A stretch of 64,000 nucleotides of DNA from Roseateles puraquae (GTDB taxonomy: Bacteria > Pseudomonadota > Gammaproteobacteria > Burkholderiales > Burkholderiaceae_C). The translations under genes and the position numbers were made by a program. The stretch is taken from contig NZ_NISI01000009.1 in the NCBI RefSeq assembly GCF_002205845.1, positions 124,001 to 188,000 of the forward strand, written 5' to 3'. Below the pieces are notes generated by a model. That model had not been told where the DNA came from. It worked only from the letters and a program-made list of their open reading frames with translations, and did not search any database. Numbering within the stretch: the first letter of the stretch is position 1; each line of letters begins with the position of its first letter. Below are positions 3,063 to 57,981 of the stretch, piece after piece.

Positions 3063-3102
3063 CTTGGCCAGGCGCGTCCGCCCCGCCATCCCTGCGCTTC
3101 AC

Positions 3103-17462: not shown

Positions 17463-19856
17463 TCAGGGCAGCGTGGTGGTCAGCACACGGCCGTACAGCG
17501 GGGGCACGACGAACTGAAGACGCGAGTCGTTCACCCGCACCGGGGTGTTGGTCAGCCCATCCTGCAGCAGCGTCACGCCGGGCGGCACGGTCACGGTGAC
17601 TGTGCGCGGCACCAGGCTGTTGTTGGTCGCCGTCAGCGCCCAAGTGGCACCGTCCTGCCGGGCCAGCACCACGACCTGGTCATCCACGTGCAGCGGGGCT
17701 TGCAGGGTGCCGTGGCGCAGCACGGGCAGGTCATGGCGCAGTTGGGTCAGACGCTTGAAGTCCGCCAACAGGGCCTCGTCCGGCTGGCCGCCTTGGTCGG
17801 CCCAGGGGTAGGGCATGCGGTTGTAGGGGTCGTCACCCCCGCCCACGCCGACCTCATCGCCGTAATAGATGGTCGGCGCGCCGGGGTAGGTCATCTGGAA
17901 GAACACGGCCAGGCGCAGCCGGCGCTTGGCCAGGGCCAGGTCTTGCTCCTCGCCAAAGTGATGCAGGGCCCGGGGCTGGTCGTGCGTGGACAGCAGGTTC
18001 ATCAGCGCCGAGAAGGCCTGCGGCGGGTAGGCCTCGCGCATCAGCTCCAGGTTGGCCGCCATCACCGCTCCTGACTTGCCGGCCGCGTAGTCGAGCACGG
18101 CGTTGCGGAAGATGTAGTTCATGGTGCTGTCGAACATGTCACCAAGGAAGTACTTGGAACTGTCGAACCAGGTCTCGGCGACGGTCAGGGCATCCGCCTT
18201 GCGGGACTTCACCGCGCGGCGCCACTCGCGCCAGAAGTCGTCGGGCACCCAGGGTGCCACGTCCATGCGCCAGCCCGCCGCCCCGCGGTCGAGCCAGAGC
18301 TTGGTGACCGAATCGTCGTCGCCGTAGGCAAACGCCCGGAAGGACGGGCTGTTCTTGTCGAGTTCGGGCAGGTCGGTCACGCCCACCCAGCCCTGGAACT
18401 GCTTGTCGGGGTCCTTCTCGTCGGGTTTGAACTTGAACCAGCTCGCGTACGGCGAGGCCGGGTTGATACGGCCGTTGTCGAACGCACCGCCCGCCGGGAA
18501 GTTGTTGAAGCGGTTGAAGTAGGGCGAGTCGGCGCCGACGTGGTTCAGCGAGGTGTCGGGGATGACGCGGATGCCCCGCTTGGCCGCTTCGACGCACAGC
18601 CGCAGGAAGTCGTCGTTGCTGCCGAAGGCGGGGTCGATCTGCTTGTAGTCGGCCGCGTCGTACTTGTGGTTGCTCGGCGCGCGGAAGACGGGCGTCAGGT
18701 AGAGCGCATTGGCACCCAGGCTCTGGATGTAGTCCAGCTTCTGGATGAGGCCGGCCAGGTCGCCGCCGAAGAAGTCGTTGTTGTAGAGGGCGTCCGAGCC
18801 ATCCCCGGTGCCTGGCTTGAAAGGCTTCTCGTTCCAGCGGGCATGCCGCTCCACGTCGCGGTCCTGGTAGCGGTCCTGCGGGCGACCGCCGCCGGGCCGC
18901 GGGTCGTTGCTGGGGTCGCCGTTGCGAAAGCGTTCGGGGAAGACGTAGTAGTACACGACGTCACGCGCCCACGCCGGCACCTGGAAGTCGGCGGCGTAGA
19001 TGGTTTGCCGGTAGCGCCGGATGCGTTTGTCCTGGGCGGGCAGGCGCTCGACGCTGGCCGCGCCCATGGAGCCCTTCTCGCGAGTCCAGTAGATCGTGTC
19101 CTTGTTGTTCTGCAGCGCGTAGCGCCCCTGTGCCGTCTCCAGCTCGAACCAGTAGCCGTAGACCCCGGGCTCCGCGAAGCGGTAGCGCGCTGCGAAGCCT
19201 GTGCCCATGCCGCGTGACTCCGGCGTCATGTCGATGCGTGCCAGGGGCTCGTAGGCGAGTTGCTCCTGGTTGCCGGTCAGGCGCCGGCGTTCAACGACCA
19301 GGGTGGCGCGCTTCAGCCCCGGCACGTCGTTGCCCACGCGGAACGTGAACTCAGTGCCGGCAGGCTGGGCCCCGAAGGGCGTCTTGAACTCAGCCTCGCG
19401 CGAATGGAAGTGAGTGGTCAGCGCGGCGCGATCACGGATCGGCCGAGGCGGCGTGGGCTTGAAGGTCTGCGGGCCCACCTGCAACTGGCCGCGCCCGTCT
19501 GCGTTCAACCGTAGTCGCAGCGTATGGGTGCCGCTGAAGCTGCGCTCGAGGTTGGCGGGCGCGCCGCGCTGCGGCTGACCCTCGGCGTTGCCGCCGAAGG
19601 TGCTCGTGGCGGTCCATTCCTCGTCGGCGATCTTGAAGGCCTGCGTGCCGCGGGCGTTGAGGTTCAGGTAATAGGCATCGCAGCGGTACTCGAAGGCCTG
19701 CTCGTCCTGCGCTGCCCAGTTGTTGAGCCCGCCACGCAGGTAGAGCACCGTGTCGCCCAGCGGCGCGGGCTTGCAGGGGGCTGATGAGGCCAGGGCGGGT
19801 GCGAGCGCCAGTAGCGGCAGAAGCGCCCACAGCGCCGCTCGCAGGGTCTGGCGCAT
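17463..19856 (-). CDS. exported neopullulanase/cyclomaltodextrinase-like GH13 enzyme
   Basis: 797 aa from the ATG at 19856. The signal peptide LWALLPLLALAPALA precedes a long N-terminal part (about residues 25-300) with beta-sandwich modules, then the GH13 barrel: DTSLNHVG (I), GWRMDVAPW with D532 (II), VAETW with E561 (III), LLSTHDQPR with D626 (IV). The combination of N-terminal sandwich domains and LSTHDxPR in region IV is typical of neopullulanase/cyclomaltodextrinase relatives. It would cut alpha-1,4 (and possibly alpha-1,6) bonds of oligosaccharides in the periplasm. It is the last gene of the malKEFG operon, 5 bp after malG, so its product feeds the importer. Confidence 0.88.
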   Translation of the reverse strand: MRQTLRAALWALLPLLALAPALASSAPCKPAPLGDTVLYLRGGLNNWAAQDEQAFEYRCDAYYLNLNARGTQAFKIADEEWTATSTFGGNAEGQPQRGAPANLERSFSGTHTLRLRLNADGRGQLQVGPQTFKPTPPRPIRDRAALTTHFHSREAEFKTPFGAQPAGTEFTFRVGNDVPGLKRATLVVERRRLTGNQEQLAYEPLARIDMTPESRGMGTGFAARYRFAEPGVYGYWFELETAQGRYALQNNKDTIYWTREKGSMGAASVERLPAQDKRIRRYRQTIYAADFQVPAWARDVVYYYVFPERFRNGDPSNDPRPGGGRPQDRYQDRDVERHARWNEKPFKPGTGDGSDALYNNDFFGGDLAGLIQKLDYIQSLGANALYLTPVFRAPSNHKYDAADYKQIDPAFGSNDDFLRLCVEAAKRGIRVIPDTSLNHVGADSPYFNRFNNFPAGGAFDNGRINPASPYASWFKFKPDEKDPDKQFQGWVGVTDLPELDKNSPSFRAFAYGDDDSVTKLWLDRGAAGWRMDVAPWVPDDFWREWRRAVKSRKADALTVAETWFDSSKYFLGDMFDSTMNYIFRNAVLDYAAGKSGAVMAANLELMREAYPPQAFSALMNLLSTHDQPRALHHFGEEQDLALAKRRLRLAVFFQMTYPGAPTIYYGDEVGVGGGDDPYNRMPYPWADQGGQPDEALLADFKRLTQLRHDLPVLRHGTLQAPLHVDDQVVVLARQDGATWALTATNNSLVPRTVTVTVPPGVTLLQDGLTNTPVRVNDSRLQFVVPPLYGRVLTTTLP

Positions 19857-19861
19857 GACGC

Positions 19862-20752
19862 TCAGCCCTTGACGCCGCCTGCGGTCAGCCCGGAGACGAT
19901 CCAGCGCTGGGCCAGCAGGAAGACCAGGGTGATCGGCAGGCCCGACAGCACCGCGGCGGCGGCGAAGTCGCCCCACAGGAAACGCTGGTCATGCAGGAAG
20001 TACTTGGAGCCGACGGCGAGCGTCAGGTTGGCTTCTTCGCGCAGCAGCACCGAGGCGACCGGGTACTCGATGATGGTGCCGATGAAGGCCAGCACGAACA
20101 CCACCATCAGGATGGGCACCGCCATGGGCAGCAGCACACGGGAGAAGGCCTGCCAGTGCGTGGCGCCGTCGACCTTGGCGTTCTCCTCGATCTCCACGGG
20201 GATGGTCTCGAAGTAGCCCTTGATCGTCCACACATGCGTGGCGATGCCGCCGAGGTAGGCGAGCACCAGGCCGGCATGCGTCTCGACGCCCAGCGCGGGG
20301 ATGTAGGTGCCGATGGTCTCGAAGATCGCGAAGATGGCCACCAGCGCCAGCACCGGCGGGAACATCTGCAGCAGCAGCATGCCGTTGAGCACAGGCTTGC
20401 TGAAGTTGAACTTCAGCCGCGCGAAGGCATAGGCGGCCGTGGTGGAGATGGCCACGATCAGGAAGGCCGAGGCGGTGGCCACCTTGATGGAGTTCCAGAG
20501 CCAGGTCAGCACCGGGAACGGCGGCTGCACCAGGCTGCCGTCGGCGGCCTGGTAGGGGATGCCAAGTGCGAGCTTCCAGTGCTCCAGGCTGATCTCGGTC
20601 GGGATCAGGCTGCCGGTGGCGAAGTTGCCCGGCCGCAGCGAGATGGACACGACGGCCAGCAGCGGGAAGAGGGTCACGGCGATGAACACCCACATCACGG
20701 CGTGTGCCGCGAAGGAGCGCCAGCGGGCTTGCTTGCCGAGGACGATGGCCAT
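19862..20752 (-). CDS. malG: maltose/maltodextrin ABC transporter permease MalG
   Basis: 296 aa, six hydrophobic segments, and the permease EAA loop [20 protein letters not shown], which docks on MalK. The C-terminus ends [11 protein letters not shown], as in E. coli MalG. A GGGAG box lies 7 nt before the ATG at 20752. The gene is separated from malF by about 100 bp that consist mostly of a palindromic repeat, unlike the other genes of the operon, which overlap. Confidence 0.95.
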
Positions 20753-20770
20753 TCAAGAACTCCCAAAGAC

Positions 20771-20848
20771 AGGGGCCACAGAGGCACAGGGACACAGAGG
20801 AAAACAAGGGCGATGCCTCTGTGGCTCCGTGCCCCTGTGGCTGTGTTC
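20771..20848. repeat. palindromic CACAGAGG-type intergenic repeat, copy A
   Basis: Left arm 20771-20800 and right arm 20815-20848 are near-complementary (GCCACAGAGGCACAGG against CCTCTGTGGCTCCGTGCC), so RNA from either strand could fold into a long imperfect hairpin. It fills most of the malF-malG gap. Related copies are at 23578-23665 and 29811-29876. Confidence 0.85.
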
Positions 20849-20853
20849 GGTTT

Positions 20854-22434
20854 TCATTTCTGCGCCTTGGCGGAGAGCCGCAGGTTGATCAACGACAGCG
20901 CCGCGACCAGGAAGAAGATCAGGGTCGAGATCGCCGCCGCCAGGCCGAAGTCCGAACCCGAGTCGCGGAAGGCGATGCGGTAGGTGTAGCTGACGAGGAT
21001 GTCGGTCTGGCCCGCGGGCAGCTTGGTGGACAGGAAGTCCGGCCGGCCGTCGGTCAGCAGCGCGATCAGCACGAAGTTGTTGAAGTTGAACGCGAAGGCG
21101 CTCACCAGCAGCGGCGCCAGCGGCTTGATGATCAGCGGCGCGGTGATCTTCAGGAAGTTGGTGGCCGGGCTCGCGCCGGCCAGGGCGGAGGCTTCGTACA
21201 GGTCTGCAGGAATCGCCTTCAGCAGCCCCGAGCACAGGATCATGATGTAGGGGTAGCCCAGCCACACGTTGACGATGAGGAGCATCGTCTTGGCCAGCAG
21301 CGGGTCGGCGAACCACGCTGGCTTCACGCCGAAGAGGGCATCCAGGATGGCATTGATCTCGCCGAAGTTCTGGTTGAACAGGCCCTTGAACACGAGGATG
21401 GAGATGAAGCCCGGCACCGCGTACGGCAGGAACAGCAGGGTGCGGTAGGTGGTGCGAAACCGCATGCCTTCCCAGTTCAGCATCACCGCGAACAGCATGC
21501 CGATGGCCGTGGCGAACGCCACCGTCAGCGCCGAGAACACCACCGTCCACCAGGAGATGGACAGGAAGGGGCCGCGGAACTCGGCATCGAACAGCATGCG
21601 CGTGTAGTTGCCGACACCGATGAAGGCCTTGAAGCCGGGCTGCAGGGTTTCGCCCGCATCCGACTGGAAGAAGCCGGTGTCCCGGTTGGGCGTGAACACC
21701 ACGCCGTCGGCCATGCGGGTGAGCTTGCCGTCGCTGTGGCCCGTCCATTGCGGCTTGACCGGCCCGAACTCGCGCAGGCCGAGGTAGTGCAGGGTGGTCT
21801 GGTCAGGCAGCACCAGCACCAGCTTGGCCAGCGCTTCACGGTGCTTGATGAGTTCGGCCAGCGGCAGGGCGCCGTCTGCGGGCAGGTTGCCGGGCGCGGG
21901 GGCGGTGAGGTCCACCCGCAGTGGCGCACCGGCGCGCAGGGCCAGAGGAGGCGACACCCAGCGCGGCGTGGGCTCGCCCTCGGCGCGCAGCACCAGGCGG
22001 TATTCCGGGCCGTTGGCATGCAGGCTGTAGGCCAGCACCTGGTCCTCAACCGCATCGCGCTGCTCCAGCAGGTAGTCGCGCACGCGGCTCTCGCTGAGCA
22101 GGTGGGTGCTGGAGTAGTTGGTGAAGCCGATCTGCGCGGTGTAGACGAGCGGGAAGGCGATGAAGACCAGCATGCCCGCCACGCCCGGGAACAGGTAGCG
22201 CCATGCGAAGCCGCCCCGGCTCAGGTAGACGTAGAAGCCCGCCGTGAAGAGCACGAGCAGGCCACTCGCCCAGGCCGCCTGGCCGGCGGTGTAGATCGCA
22301 AATACGAGGTAGAGCGCGCCGAGCATCAATGCCACGGCAGCCGGCCAGTGCAGGGCCCGGGACAGTCGTTCGCCGAGCGAGGGGCCCAGGGTGGTGTAGC
22401 TGCCCTGGCCGAGGGTGGAGGAGGTCGCGTTCAT
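20854..22434 (-). CDS. malF: maltose/maltodextrin ABC transporter permease MalF
   Basis: 526 aa, the length of E. coli MalF and clearly longer than the short MalF forms of many bacteria. N-terminal membrane helices are followed by a large periplasmic P2-type loop (about residues 95-270), which in E. coli contacts the binding protein. The EAA loop reads EASALAGASPATNFLKITAP. Its ATG overlaps the malE stop by 4 bp. Together with MalG it forms the pore of the importer. Confidence 0.95.
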   Translation of the reverse strand: MNATSSTLGQGSYTTLGPSLGERLSRALHWPAAVALMLGALYLVFAIYTAGQAAWASGLLVLFTAGFYVYLSRGGFAWRYLFPGVAGMLVFIAFPLVYTAQIGFTNYSSTHLLSESRVRDYLLEQRDAVEDQVLAYSLHANGPEYRLVLRAEGEPTPRWVSPPLALRAGAPLRVDLTAPAPGNLPADGALPLAELIKHREALAKLVLVLPDQTTLHYLGLREFGPVKPQWTGHSDGKLTRMADGVVFTPNRDTGFFQSDAGETLQPGFKAFIGVGNYTRMLFDAEFRGPFLSISWWTVVFSALTVAFATAIGMLFAVMLNWEGMRFRTTYRTLLFLPYAVPGFISILVFKGLFNQNFGEINAILDALFGVKPAWFADPLLAKTMLLIVNVWLGYPYIMILCSGLLKAIPADLYEASALAGASPATNFLKITAPLIIKPLAPLLVSAFAFNFNNFVLIALLTDGRPDFLSTKLPAGQTDILVSYTYRIAFRDSGSDFGLAAAISTLIFFLVAALSLINLRLSAKAQK

Positions 22435-23675
22435 TTGTTCAGCAGCATCCGGGCAGCGGCGCCGTCGAGCGCGTCCTTCGGCGATTGCAGGCCGTTCGAG
22501 ATGGCCTCCAGCGCAGCATCCATGGCCGTCCAGAAACGACCGACCTCGGGGATGTTCGGGATGGGGGCGCCATTGCGGGCGTTGGTCATGCTGGCCTTGA
22601 TCAGCGGGTTGACCGACAGCTCGGCGTAGAAGGCCTTGTTGGCCGGCACGCCGATGGGCACGTCCGCGTCCAGCACCTTGAGCGCCTCAGGACGCATCAG
22701 GTGGTTCTCGATGAACTCCTTGGCGATGTCCTTGTTGCGGCTGGGCGCGGCAATCATGCAGCCCAGCACGCCGACGAAGCTCTTGCTGGGCTTGCCCGGG
22801 ATGACCGCTGGGATGCCGGCGACGCCGAAGTCGATCTTGGCGCGGCGCGCGTTGTCCCAGGCCCAGGGGCCGGAGATCATCATGGCCACCTCGCCGCGAG
22901 CGAAGGCCGATTCCATCTCGGCGTAGTTGGCCCCCTTGGGCATGTGGCCGTCGCGGATCAGGCGGTCCAGCATCTCGGCTGCCTTCAGGGCGCCCGGCGT
23001 GTTCACGCCGACCTGGCGGGCGTCATAGTCGCCCTGGGCGTCGCGGCGGAAGATCTCCCCGCCCGCGCCGGCCAGCATCGGCCAGGTGAAGAAGCTCTTG
23101 TTGTAGTGCCACAGGATGGCGTGCTTGCCTTGAGCCTGCAGCTGCTTGTCCAGCGCAATGACCTGGTCCCAGGTCTCGGGCGGCGTCGGGACCAGGGCCT
23201 TGTTGTAGATGAGGCCGGTCGTCTCGATCGCGATCGGGTAACCCCAGATGCGGCCGCGGTAGCTCAGCGCCTGCCAGGCCTGGTCCTCGACCTCAGCCTT
23301 GAGCTTGGCGGATGGGCGTAACGGCGTGAGCAGGCCGGCCTTGGCCCATTCGCCGACACGGTCGTGCGGCCAGCAGAAGATGTCCGGGCCCTTGCCGGCA
23401 CCGGCGGCCTGCTGGAACTTGTCGGTCGGGTCGACCGGATGCTCCACCACCACCTTGACGCCCGCCACCTTCTCGAAGGCGTTGCCGACCTTCTGCAGGC
23501 CGTTGTAGGCCTTGTCGCCGTTGATCCAGACCAATAGGCGCGGTGCGGTCTCGGCCTGCACGGGCTGAAGGAATGCGCCACACAGGCACAGAGCCACAGA
23601 GAGGCTCAGCCCTTTGACGAAGCGCGGCTTCTCTGTGCCTCCGTGCCTCTGTGGCTGTGTTCTGAACCGCCTCAT
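22431..23675 (-). CDS. malE: maltose/maltodextrin-binding protein MalE with repeat-derived signal peptide
   Basis: 414 aa. The mature part from about E42 is a type I sugar-binding protein (LLVWINGDKAYNGLQKVGNA, IFCWPHDRVGEWAKAGLL, FENHLMR-like ENHLMRPEAL). The signal peptide ends VQA at residue 41, with hydrophobic core LSLSVALCLCGAFL. Residues about 4-33 are encoded by a copy of the palindromic repeat (23578-23665): the left-hand part gives TQPQRHGGTEK, the right-hand part LSVALCLCG. The ATG at 23675 overlaps the malK stop by 4 bp, which supports this start. The protein binds maltodextrins in the periplasm and delivers them to MalFG. Confidence 0.93.
   Translation of the reverse strand: MRRFRTQPQRHGGTEKPRFVKGLSLSVALCLCGAFLQPVQAETAPRLLVWINGDKAYNGLQKVGNAFEKVAGVKVVVEHPVDPTDKFQQAAGAGKGPDIFCWPHDRVGEWAKAGLLTPLRPSAKLKAEVEDQAWQALSYRGRIWGYPIAIETTGLIYNKALVPTPPETWDQVIALDKQLQAQGKHAILWHYNKSFFTWPMLAGAGGEIFRRDAQGDYDARQVGVNTPGALKAAEMLDRLIRDGHMPKGANYAEMESAFARGEVAMMISGPWAWDNARRAKIDFGVAGIPAVIPGKPSKSFVGVLGCMIAAPSRNKDIAKEFIENHLMRPEALKVLDADVPIGVPANKAFYAELSVNPLIKASMTNARNGAPIPNIPEVGRFWTAMDAALEAISNGLQSPKDALDGAAARMLLNK
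23578..23665. repeat. palindromic CACAGAGG-type repeat, copy B, inside malE
   Basis: Arms 23578-23605 (CCACACAGGCACAGAGCCAC...) and 23627-23665 (...CTCTGTGCCTCCGTGCCTCT) are near-complementary and share words with copies A and C. The whole element lies in frame within the first 33 codons of malE. Confidence 0.85.
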
Positions 23676-24793
23676 GCCGACAGCTCCGGTGCTGCAAGGC
23701 GGCGGAGTGCACGGCCATGGCTGTCGAAGACGTAAAGCGCTTCTTCCGGCAGGTGCAGGTCCAGGGCCTGGCCGCTGCGCAGGCGGTCGGCGCCATTGCG
23801 ACCTTCGAACTGGCAGGTCAGCGGCTCCTCCAGGCCGGGGTAGGGACAGTAGGCGAAGGTGATGCCGCCCAGCGACTCGACGAAAGCCACGGTGCTTTGC
23901 AGCAGGTTGCCATGGCCGCCCTGGCGGATGTGCTCGGGCCGCACGCCCACCGTCACCTTGTCGCCAGGCTGGGCCCCCTGGCCGGAGACCCGCGCCCGAA
24001 GCGTCACGCCACTGCCGGCGAGCTTGACGTCGACATGGCCGGGCTCGATGGCGGTTAACTCCCCGGCAATGAAGTTCATCTTGGGGCTGCCGATGAAGCC
24101 CGCCACGAACAGGTTGCAGGGATGCTCGTACAGCTCCAGCGGTGACCCGACCTGCTCGACCTTGCCGGCGGACAGCACCACGATGCGGTCGGCCAGCGTC
24201 ATGGCCTCGACCTGGTCGTGCGTGACGTAGATCATCGTGGTCTTGAGGTCTTCGTGCAGCTTGGCGAACTCGTAACGCATGCGCACGCGCAGCGCGGCAT
24301 CGAGGTTGGATAGCGGCTCGTCGAAGAGGAAGACGTCGGGCTTGCGCACGATGGCGCGACCGATGGCCACGCGTTGGCGCTGGCCGCCCGACAGGTCCTT
24401 GGGCTTGCGGTCGAGCAGGTGCTCGATGTGCAGGATCTTGGCGGCGCTGCGCACGGCCGTCTCGATCTCGGCCTTGGGCACCTTGGCCAGCTTCAGTCCG
24501 AACGCCATGTTGTCGAACAGGTTCATGTGCGGGTAGAGCGCGTAGCTCTGGAACACCATCGCAATGCCCCGCTCGGCCGGCGGCACGTCATTGACGACCC
24601 GGCCGCCGATGCTCAGCTCGCCGCCGGTGATCTCTTCCAGGCCGGCGATGGAGCGCAGCAGCGTGGACTTGCCGCAGCCTGACGGGCCGACGAAGACCAT
24701 GAACTCGCCGTCGCGGATCTCCAGGTCAATGCCGTGGAGGATGCGGATGTCGCCGTAGGCCTTCTCTACGCCGGTGAGTCGAACGTCAGCCAC
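23672..24793 (-). CDS. malK: maltose/maltodextrin ABC transporter ATPase MalK
   Basis: 373 aa. Walker A GPSGCGKSTLLRS, signature LSGGQRQRVAIGRA, Walker B VFLFDEPLSNLD and H-loop VTHDQ are intact, followed by the TOBE regulatory domain. The start is a GTG at 24793 with an AAAGG box 6 nt upstream. It is the first gene of the malK-malE-malF-malG-neopullulanase operon, read divergently from glgP. It powers maltodextrin import; whether it binds a transcription factor as E. coli MalK does cannot be seen. Confidence 0.95.
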   Translation of the reverse strand: MADVRLTGVEKAYGDIRILHGIDLEIRDGEFMVFVGPSGCGKSTLLRSIAGLEEITGGELSIGGRVVNDVPPAERGIAMVFQSYALYPHMNLFDNMAFGLKLAKVPKAEIETAVRSAAKILHIEHLLDRKPKDLSGGQRQRVAIGRAIVRKPDVFLFDEPLSNLDAALRVRMRYEFAKLHEDLKTTMIYVTHDQVEAMTLADRIVVLSAGKVEQVGSPLELYEHPCNLFVAGFIGSPKMNFIAGELTAIEPGHVDVKLAGSGVTLRARVSGQGAQPGDKVTVGVRPEHIRQGGHGNLLQSTVAFVESLGGITFAYCPYPGLEEPLTCQFEGRNGADRLRSGQALDLHLPEEALYVFDSHGRALRRLAAPELSA

Positions 24794-24885: not shown

Positions 24886-24900
24886 TGTAGACAATATACA
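24886..24900. promoter_or_regulatory. starch-regulon operator, malK side
   Basis: TGTAGA-CAA-TATACA, a near-palindrome about 93 bp before the malK start and 110 bp from the perfect site at 24996. Confidence 0.6.
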
Positions 24901-24995
24901 GTTCTGTAGCGCCTTGAACAACAGAGACTACCCGGTTGAATCCGAGTGAAACCGTTGTAGATCAAGCATTTGCAGATCGAGCCGGGTTTTCCCGA

Positions 24996-25010
24996 TGTAG
25001 TCAAACTACA
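24996..25010. promoter_or_regulatory. starch-regulon operator, glgP side, perfect palindrome
   Basis: TGTAGT-CAA-ACTACA is a perfect 6+3+6 palindrome, 84 bp before the glgP ATG. It is the best example of the motif that recurs before the other starch genes. Confidence 0.75.
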
Positions 25011-25093: not shown

Positions 25094-27607
25094 ATGAACA
25101 CCCCAACCCGCCCGCCCGTCCAACGCAAGACCCAGCCCAAGGCCGCCACTGCGATGAAGAAGCCGACTGCCCTCACTGCCGAAGACCAGGCGCTGCGCGC
25201 CGCCTTCGAGACCGCCTATGAGCGCGAGCTGTCGCAGAGCAGCCATGGCGCCACGCCTCAGGCTGCCCTGCATGCGGCGGCCATCGCTTGCCGCGAGACC
25301 CTCGCGCGCCGCTGGGCCGCCACCCAGGCGCAGGATGCCCAGCGCGGCGAGAAGGCGCCGGTGCGTCGCGTGCATTACCTGTCGATGGAGTTCCTGATGG
25401 GCCGCGCGCTGTCCAATGCGCTCGCGGCGCTGAAGCTGTCCGCGCCCCTGGAGGCCAAGCTGGCCGAGCAAGGCCTGGCCCTGGGTGACGTGCTCGAGCG
25501 CGAGCCTGACGCCGCGCTGGGCAACGGCGGCCTGGGCCGCCTGGCCGCCTGCTTCCTGGACAGCTTTGCCGAGCTGGAACTGCCGTCATTCGGCTATGGC
25601 CTGCGCTATCGCTATGGCACGTTCGCCCAGGTCATCCAGCAGGGCCGTCAGCTGGAGCAGCCCGACGACTGGACCCGCGACACCCCGGCCTGGGAGCTGC
25701 CGCGCCAGGACCTGCGCTACCACGTGGGCTTTGGCGGCCGCGTGGAGGTGGATGCCTCCGGCGTGCGCCGCTGGCTGCCGGCCGACAGCATCGAGGCCCA
25801 GGCCTATGACTTCATCGTGCCCGCCCACCACAGCGACCGGGTCTCGACCCTGCGCCAGTGGCAGGCCACGGCTGCGCCCATCGCGTTCAAGCCGTTCTGC
25901 GAAGGCGACTACGCCCGCGCTGCCCGCCACCAGGTGCTGGCCGACGCGCTGAACTGGGTGCTGTATCCGGACGACTCCACCGAGGCTGGCCGTGAGCTGC
26001 GCCTGAAGCAGGAAGCCTTCCTGGTGAGCGCTTCGCTACAGGATCTGGTGGCGCGCCATCTGCGCGAGTTCGGTTCGCTGCACAACCTGGGCAAGACCAA
26101 CGCCATCCACCTGAACGACACGCACCCGGCCCTGGCGCCGGCCGAGCTGATGCGCCTGCTGCTCGACGAGCACGGCCTGGGCTGGGACGAAGCCTGGAAG
26201 ATCACCCGCCAGGCCGTGGCCTACACCAATCACACGCTGATGCCCGAGGCGCTGGAGACCTGGCCGGTGCGCATGTTCGAGCAGCTGCTGCCGCGCCACC
26301 TCGAGATCATCTACGAGATCAACCATCGCTTCCTGGCCGAGCTGCAGCAGCGCTTCCCGGGTGACCATGGGCTGGCTTCGCGCGTGTCCCTCATCGACGA
26401 AGGCAGCCACGGTGGCGAGCGCCGCGTGCGCATGGCGTCTCTCGCGCTGGTGGCCTCGCACCGCGTCAACGGCGTGGCCGCGCTGCATTCCGAGCTGATG
26501 GTGCAGACCATCTTTGCCGACTACGCCCGCGTGTGGCCCGAGCGGTTCCACAACGTCACCAACGGCGTCACGCCGCGTCGCTGGCTGCAGCAGGCCAACC
26601 CGCTGCTGTCGCAGCTGCTGGACAGCCGCATCGGTGACGGCTGGCGCAAAGACCTGGCCGAGCTCGCCGAGCTCAAGCCCCTGGCGGCCGACCGCGTGCT
26701 GGGCGAGGAGTTCCTGGCCGTGAAGCGCGCCAACAAGGAGCGCCTGGCCGCCGTCATCCGCCGCGAGCTGGGCCTCACGGTCAACGTGGACAGCCTGTTC
26801 GACATCCAGATCAAGCGCATCCACGAGTACAAGCGCCAACTGCTGAACCTGCTGCACGTCATCAGCCGCTACCAGGCCATCCGCGACAACCCCGACGCCA
26901 ACTGGGTGCCACGCACCGTCATCATCGCGGGCAAGGCTGCCTCGGCCTACCAGATGGCCAAGAGCATCGTGCGCCTGGCGCATGACGTGGCCCGCGTGAT
27001 CAACAGCGACCCGCGCGTGGGCGACAAGCTCAAGCTGGTCTTCCTGCCCAACTACAGCGTCACGCTGGCCGAAAGCATCATCCCGGCAGCCGACCTCTCC
27101 GAGCAGATCTCCACCGCCGGTACCGAGGCCTCGGGCACGGGCAACATGAAGTTCGGCATGAACGGGGCGGTCACGATCGGCACCTGGGACGGCGCCAACA
27201 TCGAGATGGCCGAGGCCATGGGCGTGGAGAACATGTTCGTGTTCGGCCTGCGTGCTGATGCGGTGGCCAAGATCAAGTCGCTGGGCTACGACCCGCGCCT
27301 GTATGTCGAAGAGAATCGCCAGCTGAAGCGAGTCATCGACGCCATCTCGGCCGGCGTGTTCAGCAACGGCGACACCGAGCGCTACCGCGCTCTGGTGGAC
27401 AGCCTGCTGCAGCGCGACGTGTATCTGCTGATGGCCGATTTCGCTGATTACGTCGCCACCCAGGCCAAGGTCGACACGCTGTTCGCCGACCGGGCCGCCT
27501 GGGCTGAGCGCGCTTTGCGCAACATTGCCGGCATGGGCCCGTTCTCGAGTGATCGCACGATCGCAGAGTATGTGGACCGTGTCTGGTCCGTCAAATCCTT
27601 GAACTGA
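25094..27607 (+). CDS. glgP: glycogen/maltodextrin phosphorylase
   Basis: 837 aa, GT35 family. The substrate and PLP sites are recognisable: DAALGNGGLGRLAACFLDS near the N-terminus and EASGTGNMKFGMNGA near the C-terminus, where K686 is the lysine that binds pyridoxal phosphate. It releases glucose-1-phosphate from alpha-1,4-glucan ends using phosphate. The start at 25094 has only a weak GGGGG box; an internal ATG at 25154 is an alternative. The stop TGA shares one base with the glgB ATG. Since malQ is in the same operon, action on imported maltodextrins is as likely as on glycogen. Confidence 0.94.
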   Translation: MNTPTRPPVQRKTQPKAATAMKKPTALTAEDQALRAAFETAYERELSQSSHGATPQAALHAAAIACRETLARRWAATQAQDAQRGEKAPVRRVHYLSMEFLMGRALSNALAALKLSAPLEAKLAEQGLALGDVLEREPDAALGNGGLGRLAACFLDSFAELELPSFGYGLRYRYGTFAQVIQQGRQLEQPDDWTRDTPAWELPRQDLRYHVGFGGRVEVDASGVRRWLPADSIEAQAYDFIVPAHHSDRVSTLRQWQATAAPIAFKPFCEGDYARAARHQVLADALNWVLYPDDSTEAGRELRLKQEAFLVSASLQDLVARHLREFGSLHNLGKTNAIHLNDTHPALAPAELMRLLLDEHGLGWDEAWKITRQAVAYTNHTLMPEALETWPVRMFEQLLPRHLEIIYEINHRFLAELQQRFPGDHGLASRVSLIDEGSHGGERRVRMASLALVASHRVNGVAALHSELMVQTIFADYARVWPERFHNVTNGVTPRRWLQQANPLLSQLLDSRIGDGWRKDLAELAELKPLAADRVLGEEFLAVKRANKERLAAVIRRELGLTVNVDSLFDIQIKRIHEYKRQLLNLLHVISRYQAIRDNPDANWVPRTVIIAGKAASAYQMAKSIVRLAHDVARVINSDPRVGDKLKLVFLPNYSVTLAESIIPAADLSEQISTAGTEASGTGNMKFGMNGAVTIGTWDGANIEMAEAMGVENMFVFGLRADAVAKIKSLGYDPRLYVEENRQLKRVIDAISAGVFSNGDTERYRALVDSLLQRDVYLLMADFADYVATQAKVDTLFADRAAWAERALRNIAGMGPFSSDRTIAEYVDRVWSVKSLN

Positions 27608-29784
27608 TGCTGAACGACGCCGACCTCGACGCCCTGCTGGCAGGCCGCCACGCCGACCCCTTCTCGCGGCTGGGCCTGCATGCGGACGACGCGGGTCGGC
27701 TCTGGGTGCGGGTGCTGCTGCCCGGTGCGGCGGACGTGACGCTGCTGGATGCCGGCAGCGGCAAGCGCATCGTCGAGCTTGAGCACCGGCGCGGCGGCTT
27801 CTTCGAGGCCCAGGTGCCGCGGCGCAAGCACCGCTTCGACTACCGGCTGGCGGTGCACTGGGCCGGCGGCGGGGAGGGCGTGTATGCCGACCCCTACAAC
27901 TTCTACCCGCAGCTCGGCGATGACGAGCTGCAGGCCTTTGCCGAAGGCCGCAACTTCCGCCCCTGGTTGAGCCTGGGGGCGCATGTGGTGCAGTACGGCG
28001 ACGTGCGCGGCGTGCGCTTCGCGACCTGGGCACCGAATGCGCGGCGCGTCAGCGTCGTGGGCAACTTCAACAACTGGGACGGCCGTCGCCACCCGATGCG
28101 CCTGCGCCACCAGGCGGGCGTGTGGGAGATCTTCGTGCCGCATGCGGCCGAGGGCGATCTGTACAAGTTCGAGATCGTCGCCGGCAATGGGGCGCTGCTG
28201 CCGCTGAAGGCCGACCCCTACGCCCGCCGCGCGCAGCTGCGCCCCGACACGGCCAGCATCGTCACCGCCTTGCCCGAGCCCACGCCGCTGCCGCGTCAGC
28301 GCGAGCGGGCCAACCAGCGCCAGGCGCCGATCAGCGTCTACGAGGTGCACGCAGGCTCCTGGCGGCGCGGCGTGTCGGGTGAGTTCCCGACGTGGGACGA
28401 GCTCGCCGAGCATCTGCCCGGCTATGTGGCTGACCTCGGTTTCACGCATGTGCAGCTCATGCCCATCAGCGAGCATCCCTTCGACGGCTCCTGGGGTTAC
28501 CAGACCCTCGGCCTTTACGCCCCGAGTGCGCGTTTCGGCCCGCCGGAAGGCTTCGCGCGCTTCGTGAAGGCGGTGCACGACCAGGGGCTGGGCCTGCTGC
28601 TGGACTGGGTGCCCGCGCACTTCCCGGCCGATGCCCATGGCCTGGCCGAGTTCGACGGCACGCGGCTGTACGAGTACGCCGACCCGCGCGAGGGCTTCCA
28701 CCGCGACTGGAACACGCTGATCTACAACTTTGGCCGCACCGAGGTGCGCGAGTTCCTGATCGGCAGCGCCACCTACTGGATCGAGCGCTGGGGCGTGGAC
28801 GGCCTGCGCGTGGACGCCGTGGCCAGCATGCTCTACCGCGACTACTCGCGGCCCGAGGGGCAGTGGATTCCGAACGTCCGCGGCGGTCGCGAGAACCTGG
28901 AAGCCATCTCGCTGCTGCGAGAGATGAACGAGCACGTCGGCGAGATCGAAGGCGCCATCACCGTGGCCGAGGAGAGCACCAGCTTCCCCGGCGTCTCGGC
29001 GCCCACCTACGCGGGCGGCCTGGGCTTTCACTACAAGTGGAACATGGGCTGGATGAACGACACCTTGCGCTACATGGCCGAGGACCCGATCAACCGCCGC
29101 TGGCATCACGACAAGATGACCTTCGGCCTGATCTATGCGTTCAGCGAGAACTTCATGCTGCCCATCTCGCACGATGAGGTGGTGCACGGCAAGGGCTCCA
29201 TGCTCAGCAAGATGCCGGGGGACGATTGGCAGAAGTTCGCCAACCTGCGCGCCTACTACGGCTTCATGTGGGGCCACCCGGGCAAGAAGCTGCTGTTCAT
29301 GGGCCAGGAGTTTGCTCAGCGCAACGAGTGGAACCAGGCCGAGGCGCTGCCGTGGGGCCTCCTGGAAGACGACCGCCATGCCGGCGTGCAGCGCCTGGTG
29401 CGAGACCTCAACAAGCTCTACCGCGAGCACTCTGCTTTGCACCGCCTGGACAGCGAGCCCGGCGGCTTCGAGTGGATCAGCGCGCACGATGCCGAGCATT
29501 CCATCTTCGCGTGGGTGCGGCGCGACGGCACGGGCCGCATGGTCATCGTCGTCTGCAACATGACGCCGGTGCCGCGCGAGGGCTACTCGCTGGGCGTGCC
29601 GGACGGCGTGACGGCCTGGAAGGAAGCCCTGAACACCGATTCGGCCTATTACGGCGGCAGCAACATGGGCAACGGCGTGGCTGCGGCTGGCTTGCCGGTG
29701 CAGGCGCAGCCCGCCCACGGGCGGCGCCTGTCGATCACGATCAACCTGCCGCCGCTGGCGACCTTGTTCTTCGTCCCCATTTGA
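27607..29784 (+). CDS. glgB: 1,4-alpha-glucan branching enzyme
   Basis: 725 aa, GH13 with an N-terminal carbohydrate-binding region and a CBM48 domain (FATWAPNARRVSVVGNFNNW). Catalytic features: GLRVDAVASMLYRDYSR with D403, ITVAEESTSFPGV with E455, and PISHDEVVHGKGSML with D523. It makes alpha-1,6 branches by moving alpha-1,4 chains. It is fused by a 1-bp overlap to the end of glgP. No glgA or glgC is found in the window, so glycogen synthesis genes must lie elsewhere. Confidence 0.96.
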   Translation: MLNDADLDALLAGRHADPFSRLGLHADDAGRLWVRVLLPGAADVTLLDAGSGKRIVELEHRRGGFFEAQVPRRKHRFDYRLAVHWAGGGEGVYADPYNFYPQLGDDELQAFAEGRNFRPWLSLGAHVVQYGDVRGVRFATWAPNARRVSVVGNFNNWDGRRHPMRLRHQAGVWEIFVPHAAEGDLYKFEIVAGNGALLPLKADPYARRAQLRPDTASIVTALPEPTPLPRQRERANQRQAPISVYEVHAGSWRRGVSGEFPTWDELAEHLPGYVADLGFTHVQLMPISEHPFDGSWGYQTLGLYAPSARFGPPEGFARFVKAVHDQGLGLLLDWVPAHFPADAHGLAEFDGTRLYEYADPREGFHRDWNTLIYNFGRTEVREFLIGSATYWIERWGVDGLRVDAVASMLYRDYSRPEGQWIPNVRGGRENLEAISLLREMNEHVGEIEGAITVAEESTSFPGVSAPTYAGGLGFHYKWNMGWMNDTLRYMAEDPINRRWHHDKMTFGLIYAFSENFMLPISHDEVVHGKGSMLSKMPGDDWQKFANLRAYYGFMWGHPGKKLLFMGQEFAQRNEWNQAEALPWGLLEDDRHAGVQRLVRDLNKLYREHSALHRLDSEPGGFEWISAHDAEHSIFAWVRRDGTGRMVIVVCNMTPVPREGYSLGVPDGVTAWKEALNTDSAYYGGSNMGNGVAAAGLPVQAQPAHGRRLSITINLPPLATLFFVPI

Positions 29785-29810
29785 TCTCCCAGCTGCGAAC
29801 GCCGATGAAG

Positions 29811-29876
29811 ACAGCCACAGTGGCACAGAGGCACAGAGAGAACACCAGCCTCTCTGTGTCTCTGTGCCTCTGTGGC
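29811..29876. repeat. palindromic CACAGAGG-type intergenic repeat, copy C
   Basis: The most symmetric copy: left arm 29811-29840 (CCACAGTGGCACAGAGGCAC and following), 9-bp loop, right arm 29850-29876 (CTCTCTGTGTCTCTGTGCCT and following). It occupies the glgB-glgX gap within an otherwise tight operon and could form a long hairpin in the mRNA. Confidence 0.88.
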
Positions 29877-29916
29877 AAGTTCGTGCCTTTGCGGCGCAGC
29901 CTCTGCAGTCCCTGAG

Positions 29917-31998
29917 ATGGCCCACCTTCCCGACCTCCAACCCGGCTGGCACGAACCGCTCGGCGCGCTTGCGCGAGATGGGGGCGTCAACTTTGCCGTG
30001 TTCAGCGAGAATGCGACCCGCGTCGAGCTGTGCGTGTTCGACGCCGAAGGCCAGCGTGAGTTGCGCCGCTACCCGCTGGACGGGCCGCATGACGGCGTCT
30101 GGCACGGCTTCCTGCCCGGCGTCGGGCCGGGGCTGGTGTACGGCCTGCGCGCCCATGGCCCCTATGCGCCGGAGCAGGGCCATCGCTTCAATCCGAACAA
30201 GTTGCTGTTGGACCCTTATGCGCGGGAGATCGTCGGCCACTTCGGCTGGCGCGCTGAGCATCACGGCTACGAGTTGGGGCATCCCGACGGCCCTCGTTCG
30301 CTGGACACCCGCGACAACGGCACGCAGGCGCTGAAGGCCCGGGTGGCGCCGGCGCCGGCGCCGCAGGCGGCCTCGCGCCCGCGCCGCGCACCGGCCGACG
30401 TGGTGCTGTACGAGATGCACGTGAAGGGCTTCTCCAAGCTGATGCCCGGCGTGCCCGAGGCGCTGCGCGGCACTTATGCGGGCGTGGCGCATCCGGCCGC
30501 CATCGCTCATTTCAAGCGGCTGGGCGTCACCACGCTCTCGCTGCTGCCGGTGCAGTACTGCATCGATGAGCCCCACCTCGCCGAGCGCGGCCTGCGCAAC
30601 TACTGGGGCTACAACACCCTCGGCTTTTTCTGCCCCGACCCGCGCTGGGCGCAGGCGGCTCATCGCCATGACCCCACCGCGGTCACCGAGGAGTTCCGTG
30701 CCATGGTGCGGGCTCTGCATGACGCCGGGCTGGAGGTCGTGCTGGACGTGGTCTACAACCACACGCCCGAGGGCAATGAGTTCGGCCCGACGCTGTCCTT
30801 CCGCGGTCTGGACAACAAGACCTACTACCGGCTCGTCGGCGGCGACTGGAGCCGCTACGAGAACCTGACCGGCTGCGGCAACACGCTGCATGCGTCGCAT
30901 CCGCGCGTGACGCAGTTCGTGCTCGACTCGCTGCGCTACTGGGTGGCCGACATGGGCGTGGACGGTTTCCGCTTCGACCTGGCGCCGGTGCTGGGCCGCG
31001 GCTCGCATGGTTTCGACCCCAACGCCGCCTTCTTCACCGCACTGCGCCAGGACCCGGTGCTGGCGGGCGTTCATCTCATCGCCGAGCCGTGGGACGCGGC
31101 CTATGACGGCTACCAGGTCGGCCGCTTCCCGGGGCGCTTCCTGGAGTGGAATGACAAGTTCCGCGACGCGGTGCGCGGCTACTGGCTCGGCGTGGGGCAG
31201 GGCGTCGGCCGAGGCGAGCTGGCGCGTCGCTTCCTGGCGTCCAGCGATGTCTTCCACCACGGCCAACGCCTGCCCACGGCCTCGGTCAACTTCATCGCGG
31301 TGCATGACGGCTTCACGCTGGCGGACCTGACCAGCTACGCCACCAAGCACAACCAGGCCAACGGCGAAGACAACCGCGACGGGCGCGATGGCGAGCTCTG
31401 CGCCAACTTCGGCGCCGAGGGCCCGACCGACGATGCGCAGATCAACGCCACCCGCGAGCGCGTGCGCCGTGCCATGCTGGCCACCTTGCTGCTGGCCCAA
31501 GGCATGCCCATGCTGTGCGCGGGTGATGAGATCGGCAACAGCCAGGGCGGCAACAACAACGCCTATTGCCAGGACAACCCCACCACCTGGCTGAACTGGG
31601 ACCGGGCCGATGGCCGACTGACTGAACTCGTGGGCGAGTTGCTCGCGCTGCGCGCCGCCGAGCCGCTGTTGCGCCACCCGCGCTGGTTCGCCACCGGCGC
31701 CGCCGAGGCCAGCATTGCCTGGTATGCCCCGAGCGGCCACGAGATGACGCCCAACGACTGGCACGATGCCGGCCAGCGGGCCTTTGGCGCCCAACTGCGC
31801 GAGGCTGGCGCCACGGCGCCGCGCCTGATGATCGTGTTCAACCCCGATGCCGCGCCGCTGCCCTTCCTGTTGTGCAACGGGCCCTGGCAGCTCGTGCTGG
31901 ACAGCAGTGGCGAGTCGGCCCACCACACCCTCCTCGCCGGCCAGCCGCTCAATGTGCCGGCTCGCTCCCTCCTCGTGCTTCGACACGTCTCGACATGA
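29917..31998 (+). CDS. glgX: glycogen debranching enzyme GlgX
   Basis: 693 aa from the ATG at 29917; an in-frame ATG at 29872 would extend it into the repeat and is less likely. N-terminal CBM48 (GGVNFAVFSENATRVELCVF), then the GH13 isoamylase-type barrel: DVVYNHTPEGNEFGPTLSFR (I), GFRFDLAPVLGR with D354, LIAEPWD with E390, FIAVHDGFT with D464. It cleaves alpha-1,6 bonds of phosphorylase limit dextrins. The stop overlaps the malQ start by 4 bp. Confidence 0.95.
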   Translation: MAHLPDLQPGWHEPLGALARDGGVNFAVFSENATRVELCVFDAEGQRELRRYPLDGPHDGVWHGFLPGVGPGLVYGLRAHGPYAPEQGHRFNPNKLLLDPYAREIVGHFGWRAEHHGYELGHPDGPRSLDTRDNGTQALKARVAPAPAPQAASRPRRAPADVVLYEMHVKGFSKLMPGVPEALRGTYAGVAHPAAIAHFKRLGVTTLSLLPVQYCIDEPHLAERGLRNYWGYNTLGFFCPDPRWAQAAHRHDPTAVTEEFRAMVRALHDAGLEVVLDVVYNHTPEGNEFGPTLSFRGLDNKTYYRLVGGDWSRYENLTGCGNTLHASHPRVTQFVLDSLRYWVADMGVDGFRFDLAPVLGRGSHGFDPNAAFFTALRQDPVLAGVHLIAEPWDAAYDGYQVGRFPGRFLEWNDKFRDAVRGYWLGVGQGVGRGELARRFLASSDVFHHGQRLPTASVNFIAVHDGFTLADLTSYATKHNQANGEDNRDGRDGELCANFGAEGPTDDAQINATRERVRRAMLATLLLAQGMPMLCAGDEIGNSQGGNNNAYCQDNPTTWLNWDRADGRLTELVGELLALRAAEPLLRHPRWFATGAAEASIAWYAPSGHEMTPNDWHDAGQRAFGAQLREAGATAPRLMIVFNPDAAPLPFLLCNGPWQLVLDSSGESAHHTLLAGQPLNVPARSLLVLRHVST

Positions 31999-33506
31999 AC
32001 CTGAACCAACGCGCCTCCGGTGTGCTGCTGCACATCACCTCGCTGCCCGGCCCGCATGGCATGGGCGATTTCGGCCCCGATGCCTACCGCTTCGTCGACT
32101 GGCTGCAGTCGGCTGGGCAGAGCATCTGGCAGTTGCTGCCCACCACGCCCATTGGCCCCGGCGACAGCCCCTACCAGGGCGTGTCGGCCTTTGCGGGCAG
32201 CCAGTGGATGGTGGCGCTGGAGCCGCTGGTCGCCAAGGGCTGGCTGGCGGCGCCCGCGGTGCCTGACTTCGACGCGCGGCATGTGGACTACGGCCGCGTC
32301 ACCCCCTGGCGCGAGCAGCAACTGCGCGCGGCGGCCGCCGGCTTCTTCGAGCGCGCCACCGATGCCGACCGCCGGGCCTTTGCCGCCTGGTGTCTGGCCC
32401 AGCAGAGCTGGCTGGACGACTACACCCTCTTCATGGCCATCCGCTCGCCGCTGAACGGCCAGCCCTGGTGGACCTGGGAAGACGGCCTCAAGCGCCGCGA
32501 CCCGAAGGCCTTGGCCACCGCGCGCAAGCAGTACGCCGACGAGATCGCCTTCTGGCAGTTCGTGCAGTGGCAATTTGACGAACAGATCGGGGCCCTCAAG
32601 GCCTATGCCAATGCGCGCGGCGTGCACATCATGGGCGACCTGCCCATCTTCGTGGCCCACGACAGCGCCGACTGCTGGTCGCGCCCTGACCTGTACTACC
32701 TCGACGACGACTTCCAGACCACGGTGGTCGCCGGCGTGCCGCCGGATGACCTCGGGCCGTTGGGCCAGCGCTGGGGCAACCCGCTGTACCGCTGGGACCG
32801 CATGGCCGCGGAGAACTATGCCTGGTGGACGGCCCGCGTGAAGCGCGCGCTGAGCCAGGCCGACGTCTTCCGCATCGATCATTTCCGCGGCTTTGCCGGC
32901 TACTACGAGATTCCCGGCGACAGCCCTGACGCCAAGCGCGGCGAATGGAAGGTCGGCCCGGGCATGGCCCTGTTCGAGGCCATCAAGGCCGCGCTCGGCG
33001 AGCTGCCCATCGTGGCGGAAGACCTGGGCTTCATCACCGATGACGTGCACGAACTGCGCGACGGCTGCGGCTTTCCCGGCATGAAGATCCTGCAGTTCGC
33101 CTTCGGTGCCGAGGGTGACCACGAGTTCCTGCCGCATATGTGGCCCCGCGCTGCCGTGGCCTACACCGGCACGCATGACAACGACACGGTGCGTGGCTGG
33201 TGGAACCAGGCCTCGCCGCGCGAGCGCGCCTTCGTGGGGTCTTACCTGGCCTGCGGCGAGCACGACATCCACTGGGCCATGATCCGCGCCTGCGCCAACT
33301 CGGTGGCCAACATGGCCGTCTATCCGCTGCAGGACGTGCTGGGCTTCGACAGCGCCCACCGCATGAACGTGCCCGGCGTGCTCGGCGGCAACTGGGGTTG
33401 GCGCTTCCAGTGGGACTGGGTGGGCAGCGAGCCGGCGCGCGTGCTGGGCCTCATCACGGCCGCTTCGGGCCGCGGCCCGTTTGAGTTGCTGAAGCTGCCC
33501 TGCTGA
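31995..33506 (+). CDS. malQ: 4-alpha-glucanotransferase (amylomaltase)
   Basis: 503 aa from the ATG at 31995, which overlaps the glgX stop; a longer frame inside glgX is rejected. GH77 features: RASGVLLHITSLPGPHGMGD at the N-terminus, VFRIDHFRGF with nucleophile D295, PIVAEDLGF with acid/base E342 and TGTHDNDTVRGWW with D395. It disproportionates maltodextrins, giving glucose and longer chains for GlgP. It is the last gene of the operon, before a strong terminator. Confidence 0.96.
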   Translation: MNLNQRASGVLLHITSLPGPHGMGDFGPDAYRFVDWLQSAGQSIWQLLPTTPIGPGDSPYQGVSAFAGSQWMVALEPLVAKGWLAAPAVPDFDARHVDYGRVTPWREQQLRAAAAGFFERATDADRRAFAAWCLAQQSWLDDYTLFMAIRSPLNGQPWWTWEDGLKRRDPKALATARKQYADEIAFWQFVQWQFDEQIGALKAYANARGVHIMGDLPIFVAHDSADCWSRPDLYYLDDDFQTTVVAGVPPDDLGPLGQRWGNPLYRWDRMAAENYAWWTARVKRALSQADVFRIDHFRGFAGYYEIPGDSPDAKRGEWKVGPGMALFEAIKAALGELPIVAEDLGFITDDVHELRDGCGFPGMKILQFAFGAEGDHEFLPHMWPRAAVAYTGTHDNDTVRGWWNQASPRERAFVGSYLACGEHDIHWAMIRACANSVANMAVYPLQDVLGFDSAHRMNVPGVLGGNWGWRFQWDWVGSEPARVLGLITAASGRGPFELLKLPC

Positions 33507-37041: not shown

Positions 37042-37055
37042 GTAATCGAACTACT
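37041..37055. promoter_or_regulatory. starch-regulon operator at the start codon of the GH13 gene
   Basis: TGTAAT-CGA-ACTACT overlaps the first base of the minus-strand start codon and lies 77 bp from the pulA-side site. Confidence 0.6.
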
Positions 37056-37117: not shown

Positions 37118-37132
37118 TGTAGTTTTGCTACG
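37118..37132. promoter_or_regulatory. starch-regulon operator, pulA side
   Basis: TGTAGT-TTT-GCTACG, 41 bp before the pulA ATG; its flanks (TTGTATATGTAGTTTTGCT) closely resemble the site at 44688. Confidence 0.65.
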
Positions 37133-37158
37133 ATGCTTTGCAAAACTGGAGACCTTGC

Positions 37159-44579: not shown

Positions 44580-44594
44580 TGAAGTAAAACTACA
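44580..44594. promoter_or_regulatory. starch-regulon operator, pullulanase lipoprotein side
   Basis: TGAAGT-AAA-ACTACA, 33 bp before the lipoprotein gene start; one mismatch in the palindrome. Confidence 0.65.
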
Positions 44595-44687: not shown

Positions 44688-44702
44688 TGTAGTTTTGCTT
44701 CC
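44688..44702. promoter_or_regulatory. starch-regulon operator, TPR-gene side
   Basis: TGTAGT-TTT-GCTTCC, 108 bp from the site at 44580 and 103 bp before the TPR lipoprotein gene. The left half is perfect, the right half degenerate. Confidence 0.55.
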
Positions 44703-57737: not shown

Positions 57738-57868
57738 GGTCTGTCTCCGTTGTGATCTGCCGCTCTCGGTGTGGAGCGGCTGTACCAGCCAGTCGAGGGC
57801 GCGCCCCGGCCGCACTCCCGGCGCCTGCCGGAAGCAGGCGAACTCTAGGCACAAGCAGCTGTGGAAAA

Positions 57869-57883
57869 TGTAGGAATACTACT
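57869..57883. promoter_or_regulatory. starch-regulon operator, amylase side
   Basis: TGTAGG-AAT-ACTACT, 132 bp before the amylase ATG and 98 bp from the second site. Confidence 0.6.
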
Positions 57884-57966: not shown

Positions 57967-57981
57967 TGTAGTTTGGTAACA
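57967..57981. promoter_or_regulatory. starch-regulon operator, distal site of the amylase/HD-GYP region
   Basis: TGTAGT-TTG-GTAACA; the left half is perfect, the right half degenerate. Confidence 0.5.

Follow-up and report, generated by a model that had tools for sequence, protein, structure and literature searches.

The window analyzed here, a stretch of 64,000 nucleotides of Roseateles puraquae, is part of contig C41 (window base 1 corresponds to C41:124001) and carries a series of starch genes next to chemosensory, smc and lysR genes. Nine 15-bp palindromes of the TGTAGT-N3-ACTACA type stand in the gaps beside the starch genes and are given here, without strand, as predicted operators among the genes.

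100..114, proximal receptor operator (predicted), TCTAGTTTTGATACA; a similar proximal site is present in the loci of 12 relatives
130..3003, plus strand, TonB-dependent receptor
3034-4332, GH13 gene after the receptor gene
17463..24793, minus strand, malK-malE-malF-malG and a GH13 (MalZ/cyclomaltodextrinase-like) gene
24886..24900, weak predicted operator before malK, TGTAGACAATATACA
24996..25010, perfect predicted operator before glgP, TGTAGTCAAACTACA
25094..33506, plus strand, glgP-glgB-glgX-malQ
35407..37041, minus strand, GH13 enzyme (TreS/oligo-glucosidase-like)
37041..37055, predicted operator before the TreS/oligo-glucosidase-like GH13 gene, TGTAATCGAACTACT
37118..37132, predicted operator before pulA1, TGTAGTTTTGCTACG
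37138..39861, plus strand, pulA1, pullulanase
40957..44547, minus strand, pulA2, pullulanase
44580..44594, predicted operator before pulA2, TGAAGTAAAACTACA
44688..44702, predicted operator before the TPR/transglutaminase-like gene, TGTAGTTTTGCTTCC
44805..46019, plus strand, transglutaminase-like/TPR protein
55845..57854, minus strand, alpha-amylase with a CBM20 starch-binding domain
57869..57883, predicted operator before the CBM20 amylase, TGTAGGAATACTACT
57967..57981, second predicted site of the amylase gap, before an HD-domain/GAF gene, TGTAGTTTGGTAACA

As the first base of the site at 37041 overlaps the ATG of the GH13 open reading frame, the real start of this gene may be located downstream. 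A homologue of the transglutaminase-like/TPR protein comes after pulA1 in four relatives, and therefore this protein looks like a part of starch use and its gene seems to be included in the regulon. A second inverted repeat (CGGG....CCCG) was observed at 24982-24995, directly upstream of the glgP site; it is kept in most of 18 aligned glgP promoters and is perhaps the site of another regulator.

All nine palindromes named in the original prediction were found, with the following mismatches to TGTAGTNNNACTACA: 100 (3), 24886 (3), 24996 (0), 37041 (2), 37118 (2), 44580 (1), 44688 (3), 57869 (2) and 57967 (3). Allowing up to three mismatches, the window holds 24 matches to TGTAGTNNNACTACA compared to 3.75 expected from 100 shuffles (sd 1.89, largest count 9), and ten of them, including a weak one at 24821 besides the nine, fall within 926 bp of starch-gene gaps (binomial P = 7e-13). 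As the remaining 14 are all located inside ORFs, two of them in the MCP gene, none occupies a gap next to the chemosensory, smc or lysR genes, in agreement with the earlier remark that no comparable palindrome had been noticed there. A weight matrix was derived from sites of other genomes with at most two mismatches to the same pattern, which is why it is not fully independent of that pattern, and in a scan of 124 kb of contig C41 it placed the nine sites at ranks 1, 5, 6, 7, 8, 9, 11, 15 and 23. Ranks 2-4 belong to three additional sites just left of the window and rank 10 to a site inside an ORF (2831), so that single weak sites are unsafe by score alone.

In the whole 6.06-Mb genome only five matches with up to one mismatch were detected, four of them within 46 kb at the starch locus and the fifth, as judged by eye, inside a porin-like ORF. 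With up to two mismatches there are 76 places versus 266 for the same pattern reversed, showing that the palindrome is clustered at the locus and not abundant; the places with two mismatches are all on other contigs among the matches listed. Six distinct places match the pattern TGTAGTNNNRCTAC (11 and 8 for the controls); five of them belong to the starch locus, and the sole match elsewhere (G000:C12:519947) stands 91 bp before an ORF that shows no Pfam match. Similarly, the 14-mer TGTAGTTTTGCTAC, present with up to one mismatch in 40 of 150 family genomes, is found at three places in the R. puraquae genome, all at the starch locus. Thus the even spread over the genome that had been named beforehand as refuting the idea was not seen for the strong sites, the weak ones with two mismatches being spread as by chance. 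Chance or a repeat family as the origin of the sites has a practically negligible probability: several of them do carry three mismatches and the pattern is not plentiful across the genome, but the shuffles, permuted half-sites, the matrix from other genomes and the conservation described below all oppose chance for the set, even if single weak sites could be due to it.

The R. puraquae genome encodes two proteins with an RpiR-type HTH domain. One of them, here called Glk-HexR, has its gene 1.6 kb to the left of the window; the original prediction that no candidate regulator is encoded within the window agrees with what was found for the window genes screened. The glk-hexR gene diverges from a second glucokinase gene, glk2, which is followed by the receptor gene, and the sites sought before a regulator gene are indeed present both before glk-hexR and before glk2.

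C41:120538-122436 (L016:16538-18436), minus strand, glk-hexR
C41:122531, predicted operator before glk-hexR, TGTAGCTTCACTACA
C41:122655, predicted operator before glk2, TGTAGTTTTGCTACC
L016:18662-19762, plus strand, glk2, start uncertain
C41:123947, predicted distal receptor operator, TGTAGTTGCGCTACA

Glk-HexR is a single chain of 632 amino acids with a glucokinase (residues 9-322), an HTH_6 (335-405) and an SIS domain (457-583), the latter two with Pfam scores of 67.4 and 55.7 bits and in the order RpiR HTH then SIS, as in the HexR/RccR group. The kinase part is above the cut-offs of PF02685 (368.7 bits, cut-off 22.1) and TIGR00749 (309.1 bits, cut-off 225.45), aligns throughout with E. coli glucokinase 1q18, to which it is 42% identical in the structure match, and looks intact. 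The whole protein shares its domain order with PRK14101, the bifunctional transcriptional regulator/glucokinase of NCBIfam, but with 833 bits over residues 5-592 it stays below the curated cut-off of 920 and its C-terminal tail is unmatched; against the HexR family PRK11302 it reaches 238.8 bits (cut-off 296). The predicted structure (mean pLDDT 76.7, pTM 0.61, five segments below 50, including 411-444 and 597-632) matches the two known folds, the best solved-structure match of the HexR part being RccR (8ju9/8k3b), but the model is too uncertain to judge the pocket or the domain arrangement. Directly downstream of zwf lies the gene of the second RpiR protein, an ordinary HexR.

According to the accessible text of PMC5489143, Pseudomonas RccR binds the same 15-bp palindrome, and its operators TGTAGTTTTACTACT and TGTAGTAAAACTACA are paired 68 bp apart before aceE. 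Glk-HexR thus resembles RccR in its HTH and SIS architecture and, by sequence, in the TGTAGT-N3-ACTACA operator, and we consider the palindrome very probably to be the docking site of Glk-HexR.

As co-occurrence bears on this assignment, we compared genomes with and without the fusion gene. The exact palindrome was located in 14 of 22 fusion genomes, at 19 places altogether, and in none of 22 non-fusion genomes (reversed control pattern: 12 versus 4 places), the former being 22 of the 32 genomes with a full-length fusion, with G045 and G027 (shorter matches) and eight more distant ones omitted, and the latter our own choice among the genomes lacking it. Seventeen of the 19 belong to the starch locus, 13 as glgP operator and four within 1.5 kb of the fusion gene, and the last two stand before a gene judged by eye to be TonB-like in two relatives (L254:1558 and L255:1570). 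This TonB-like gene was rejected as a regulon member, as 30 loci from 17 genomes gave two exact sites and one site with two mismatches; its two loci in the R. puraquae genome show no site with up to three mismatches, and its product has no Pfam match. Sites with up to one mismatch are present in the glgP promoters of 17 of 22 fusion genomes and in none of eight others, the non-fusion L138 and possibly the fusion L131 being cut by a contig end and both scored as misses. All contrasts between fusion and non-fusion genomes are confounded by relatedness and by genome choice. That another regulator, a LacI protein or an activator of some other kind, owns the palindrome and Glk-HexR is merely one of its targets appears very improbable to us: the genome does encode nine LacI proteins, a site before a gene is no proof that this gene encodes the binder, and the second conserved inverted repeat adjoins the glgP site, but none of the nine LacI genes is located on contig C41, for which reason a LacI-family maltose regulon was dropped as a lead, and the palindrome is a known operator of an RpiR homologue whose exact form is absent from the 22 non-fusion genomes.

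For a closer look at conservation we used 80 named fusion loci (the best 80 of 165) from Roseateles, Pelomonas, Paucibacter, Rubrivivax, Ideonella, Undibacterium and others, as well as further locus sets of the best 30 matches each, in which some genomes are of the same species as named loci and rows therefore overlap. In the best 80 of 165 loci, 131 sites with up to two mismatches are found in the 32 kb made up of the 400-bp stretches upstream of glk-hexR, versus 110 in the remaining 1.50 Mb. A site upstream of glk-hexR is present in 74 of these best 80 loci, a count free of row-selection bias, and 59 permuted half-sites averaged 0.8 of 80 loci in the same place, with 11 as the highest count. 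Five of the six loci without the site show the fusion gene in a different setting, either behind a pullulanase gene (L048, L082 and L101, with a two-mismatch site before the pullulanase gene in L048 only) or behind edd-eda-zwf (L058 and L063, with a two-mismatch site before edd); the sixth, L077, has a site before the receptor gene instead. Where the receptor gene is farther away, it is preceded by a site with up to one mismatch in nine loci, while L065 has no such site before it. One MAG labelled Methylotenera (L031) encodes a 98% identical fusion protein in the same neighbourhood and is probably mislabelled or contaminated.

The same is seen for the structural genes. The starch loci of seven relatives all have sites with up to two mismatches before glk-hexR, the receptor gene and malK/glgP, and the five whose stretches include pulA1 have one before this gene as well. 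Pullulanase genes on contigs other than that of glk-hexR also have a site, pulA2 in two genomes and pulA1 in two. Alignments of five sets gave 1.68-2.00 bits for the site positions versus 0.10-0.64 for the flanks; as rows were picked for having the site (for glk2 only those with AAAACTACA, a selection that favours site conservation), these values show that the flanks are free to vary and are not an unbiased score of the site. The idea of a local glucan regulon was thus borne out, as the strong sites concentrate at the starch locus genome-wide, are kept at orthologous promoters and follow genes that have moved. The expected conservation at orthologous promoters held for the strong sites and could not be extended to the pair at 57869 and 57967, for which the relatives' stretches searched contain no orthologue of the CBM20 amylase and hence no promoter for comparison. 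Six distant fusions (L180-L185) show no clear operator of the TGTAGT type, with two two-mismatch sites in L185.

As the genome has two RpiR proteins, the zwf-linked HexR, or both paralogues, could also bind the palindrome, which would turn the starch genes into additional members of a classical KDPG-responsive HexR regulon. The regulator parts of both proteins are 46% identical and the two operator types differ at just two half-site positions; in addition, a TGTAGT-type site is found less than 300 bp before edd in two of the 22 fusion genomes (G108 and G140). On the other hand, the edd promoters of 18 of the 22 show TGTAAY-N3-RTTACA (TGTAAYNNNRTTACA) with up to two mismatches, and R. puraquae and G030 a weaker form of this HexR palindrome (AGTAATATGGTTACC). 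The ordinary HexR-like gene is present in 19 loci, of which 11 include the bases before zwf, and the TGTAAY type (up to two mismatches) stands close before zwf in ten of these, that of R. puraquae included. A TGTAGT-type site with up to three mismatches is absent from the zwf-hexR and edd-eda loci of R. puraquae, and the palindrome tracks the fusion gene, which speaks against the zwf-linked HexR. With its own operator type at zwf and edd, we ruled this protein out as owner of the palindrome in R. puraquae, and the explanation as a whole, shared binding included, is improbable.

The recognition helix reads VSQPTVIRFCR..GC in all 80 fusions (best 80 of 165), VSKPTV(V/I)RFCR..GY in the 18 ordinary HexRs matching the search expression and VSEPTIVRFCR..GC in RccR; the expression missed the single RpiR genes of L058, L063 and L241, which were left unclassed. 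In the lineages of these three loci edd is divergent from the RpiR gene, and TGTAGA/TGTAGT-type palindromes stand before edd (L058:3795, L063:4694 and L241:2720) with a weaker partner 98-128 bp away. A phylogenetic tree of 43 rows, in which the RccR branch is long and for which the program warned of long branches meeting, separates starch-linked fusions, distant fusions and ordinary HexRs into three groups, with both kinds of fusion placed together.

Taking everything together, the best explanation, which we regard as highly probable from comparative sequence data, is that the palindrome is the operator of Glk-HexR, which would control its own gene and the starch genes. A dimer of its helix-turn-helix domains would bind TGTAGT-N3-ACTACA and repress glk-hexR, glk2 and the genes for the receptor, the maltodextrin importer, the phosphorylase operon, two pullulanases and the amylase, until a signal lifts the repression once starch breakdown yields glucose. 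Six gaps each contain a pair of sites, 124, 153, 110, 77, 108 and 98 bp apart, and such spacings of 77-153 bp would suit cooperative binding or looping. In 52 glk2-type sequences of relatives a conserved TTG begins 12 bases upstream of the site and a gT follows it, a pattern that agrees with a −35 element separated by a 17-bp spacer from an extended −10 element (TACCGT), part of which the operator covers. A lenient hexamer scan allows such overlaps to be placed at glk-hexR, malK and glgP of R. puraquae as well; it gave several near-equal candidates per site, and those conserved in relatives were preferred. A sigma-70 consensus scan of the malK/glgP gap called no promoter, and the overlap of operator and promoter thus rests on lenient hexamer scores and conservation. 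As several sites appear to overlap promoter elements in this way, we consider it likely that binding means repression.

The signal itself is less clear. The accessible text of PMC5489143 reports that KDPG weakens DNA binding by RccR, and that of PMC10810197 describes nine contacting residues, with R152 essential for KDPG and with DNA binding lost upon mutation of S139, H148 or H164 to Ala, residues that are thus needed for it. All 18 ordinary HexRs keep these KDPG residues (with Thr for S188 in 13 and Arg for K270 in one), whereas 104 starch-linked fusions, 91 of them distinct, do not retain the nine-residue pocket: Tyr replaces S139 in 102, Phe or Tyr replaces H148 in 100, Arg replaces H164 in 100, Leu, Val, Ile or Met replaces S188 in 103, and K270 is Lys in only four. 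R152 and S183 are kept in all 104 and S185 in 61, and an Arg aligns with R277 in 64, in a region of unsure alignment, since the fusions have, instead of the tail with K270 and R277, a longer tail whose end shows a conservation of its own. This C-terminal tail (APGVS..SPLA.LTSHS), which takes the place of the RccR helix carrying both residues, is shared by the fusions. In the six distant fusions S139 and H148 are retained, but not H164.

We infer from these replacements that the signal of Glk-HexR has changed and that KDPG sensing may have been lost; S139, H148 and H164 are, however, needed for DNA binding of RccR, and R152 and S183 are kept. We lean slightly towards an inducer that is not KDPG and could be glucose or a glucose phosphate, acting via the fused kinase or an altered SIS pocket. 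Glk-HexR might also bind the sites and still answer to KDPG, so that the starch genes would be induced by Entner-Doudoroff flux. This is a serious possibility, if somewhat on the doubtful side: in the accessible text of PMC5489143 KDPG releases RccR, which has the same operator, and the kept R152 and S183, the S185 of 61 fusions and the uncertainly aligned Arg at R277 point in the same direction, but at least 100 of the 104 fusions have replaced each of S139, H148, H164 and S188, Lys is rare at K270, and the 18 HexRs retain the pocket. Returning to an inducer other than KDPG, we tentatively suggest, as an idea that may well turn out to be wrong, that Glk-HexR is a trigger enzyme composed of a working glucokinase and a repressor blind to KDPG, in which the glucose/glucose-6-phosphate state of the kinase would gate the starch regulon, the sister HexR keeping the KDPG circuit.

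In E. coli, maltodextrin import and pullulanase-type genes are controlled by MalT, an activator that is large, depends on ATP and recognizes a different box. Compared to RccR, which in the accessible text of PMC5489143 and PMC10810197 controls genes of pyruvate, glyoxylate and gluconeogenesis metabolism, Glk-HexR differs by its glucokinase fusion and by the KDPG residues that RccR has and most fusions here lack. The gamma-proteobacterial HexR is likewise an RpiR regulator of hexose metabolism with glucokinase among its targets, but the accessible text of PMC5343134 names zwf, pgl, edd, eda, glk, pykA and further central metabolism as targets, and no starch genes, the ordinary HexR of R. puraquae is a separate protein with a different operator, and control of zwf and edd-eda was not found for the TGTAGT site, which stands before edd in only two of 22 fusion genomes. 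A starch cluster of Opacimonas immobilis combines amylase, GH77, glk, edd, pgl, zwf and hexR, but no fusion, operator or regulon is described in the accessible text of PMC12844025. In the open-access literature we found nothing linking a HexR/RpiR protein to a starch regulon and no study of a glucokinase-HexR fusion or of PRK14101 targets. As it falls below two curated family cut-offs and lacks the complete KDPG pocket, we have filed Glk-HexR as a putative variant of the HexR/RccR type rather than HexR proper.

In summary, Glk-HexR seems to have been redirected from central sugar metabolism towards the control of starch use in its bacterial group. For a large group of Burkholderiales, both a regulator and an operator of starch use are thereby predicted. 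They would also offer a clear case of paralogous regulators that share a cell and split their targets via two operator bases, along with a corresponding change of the recognition helix and the probable loss of the ancestral ligand pocket in one of the two. If the trigger-enzyme idea is true, the sister HexR with its operator differing in two bases would run the classical KDPG circuit in the same cell. The fusion of kinase and regulator would permit a direct test of an enzyme as transcriptional sensor.
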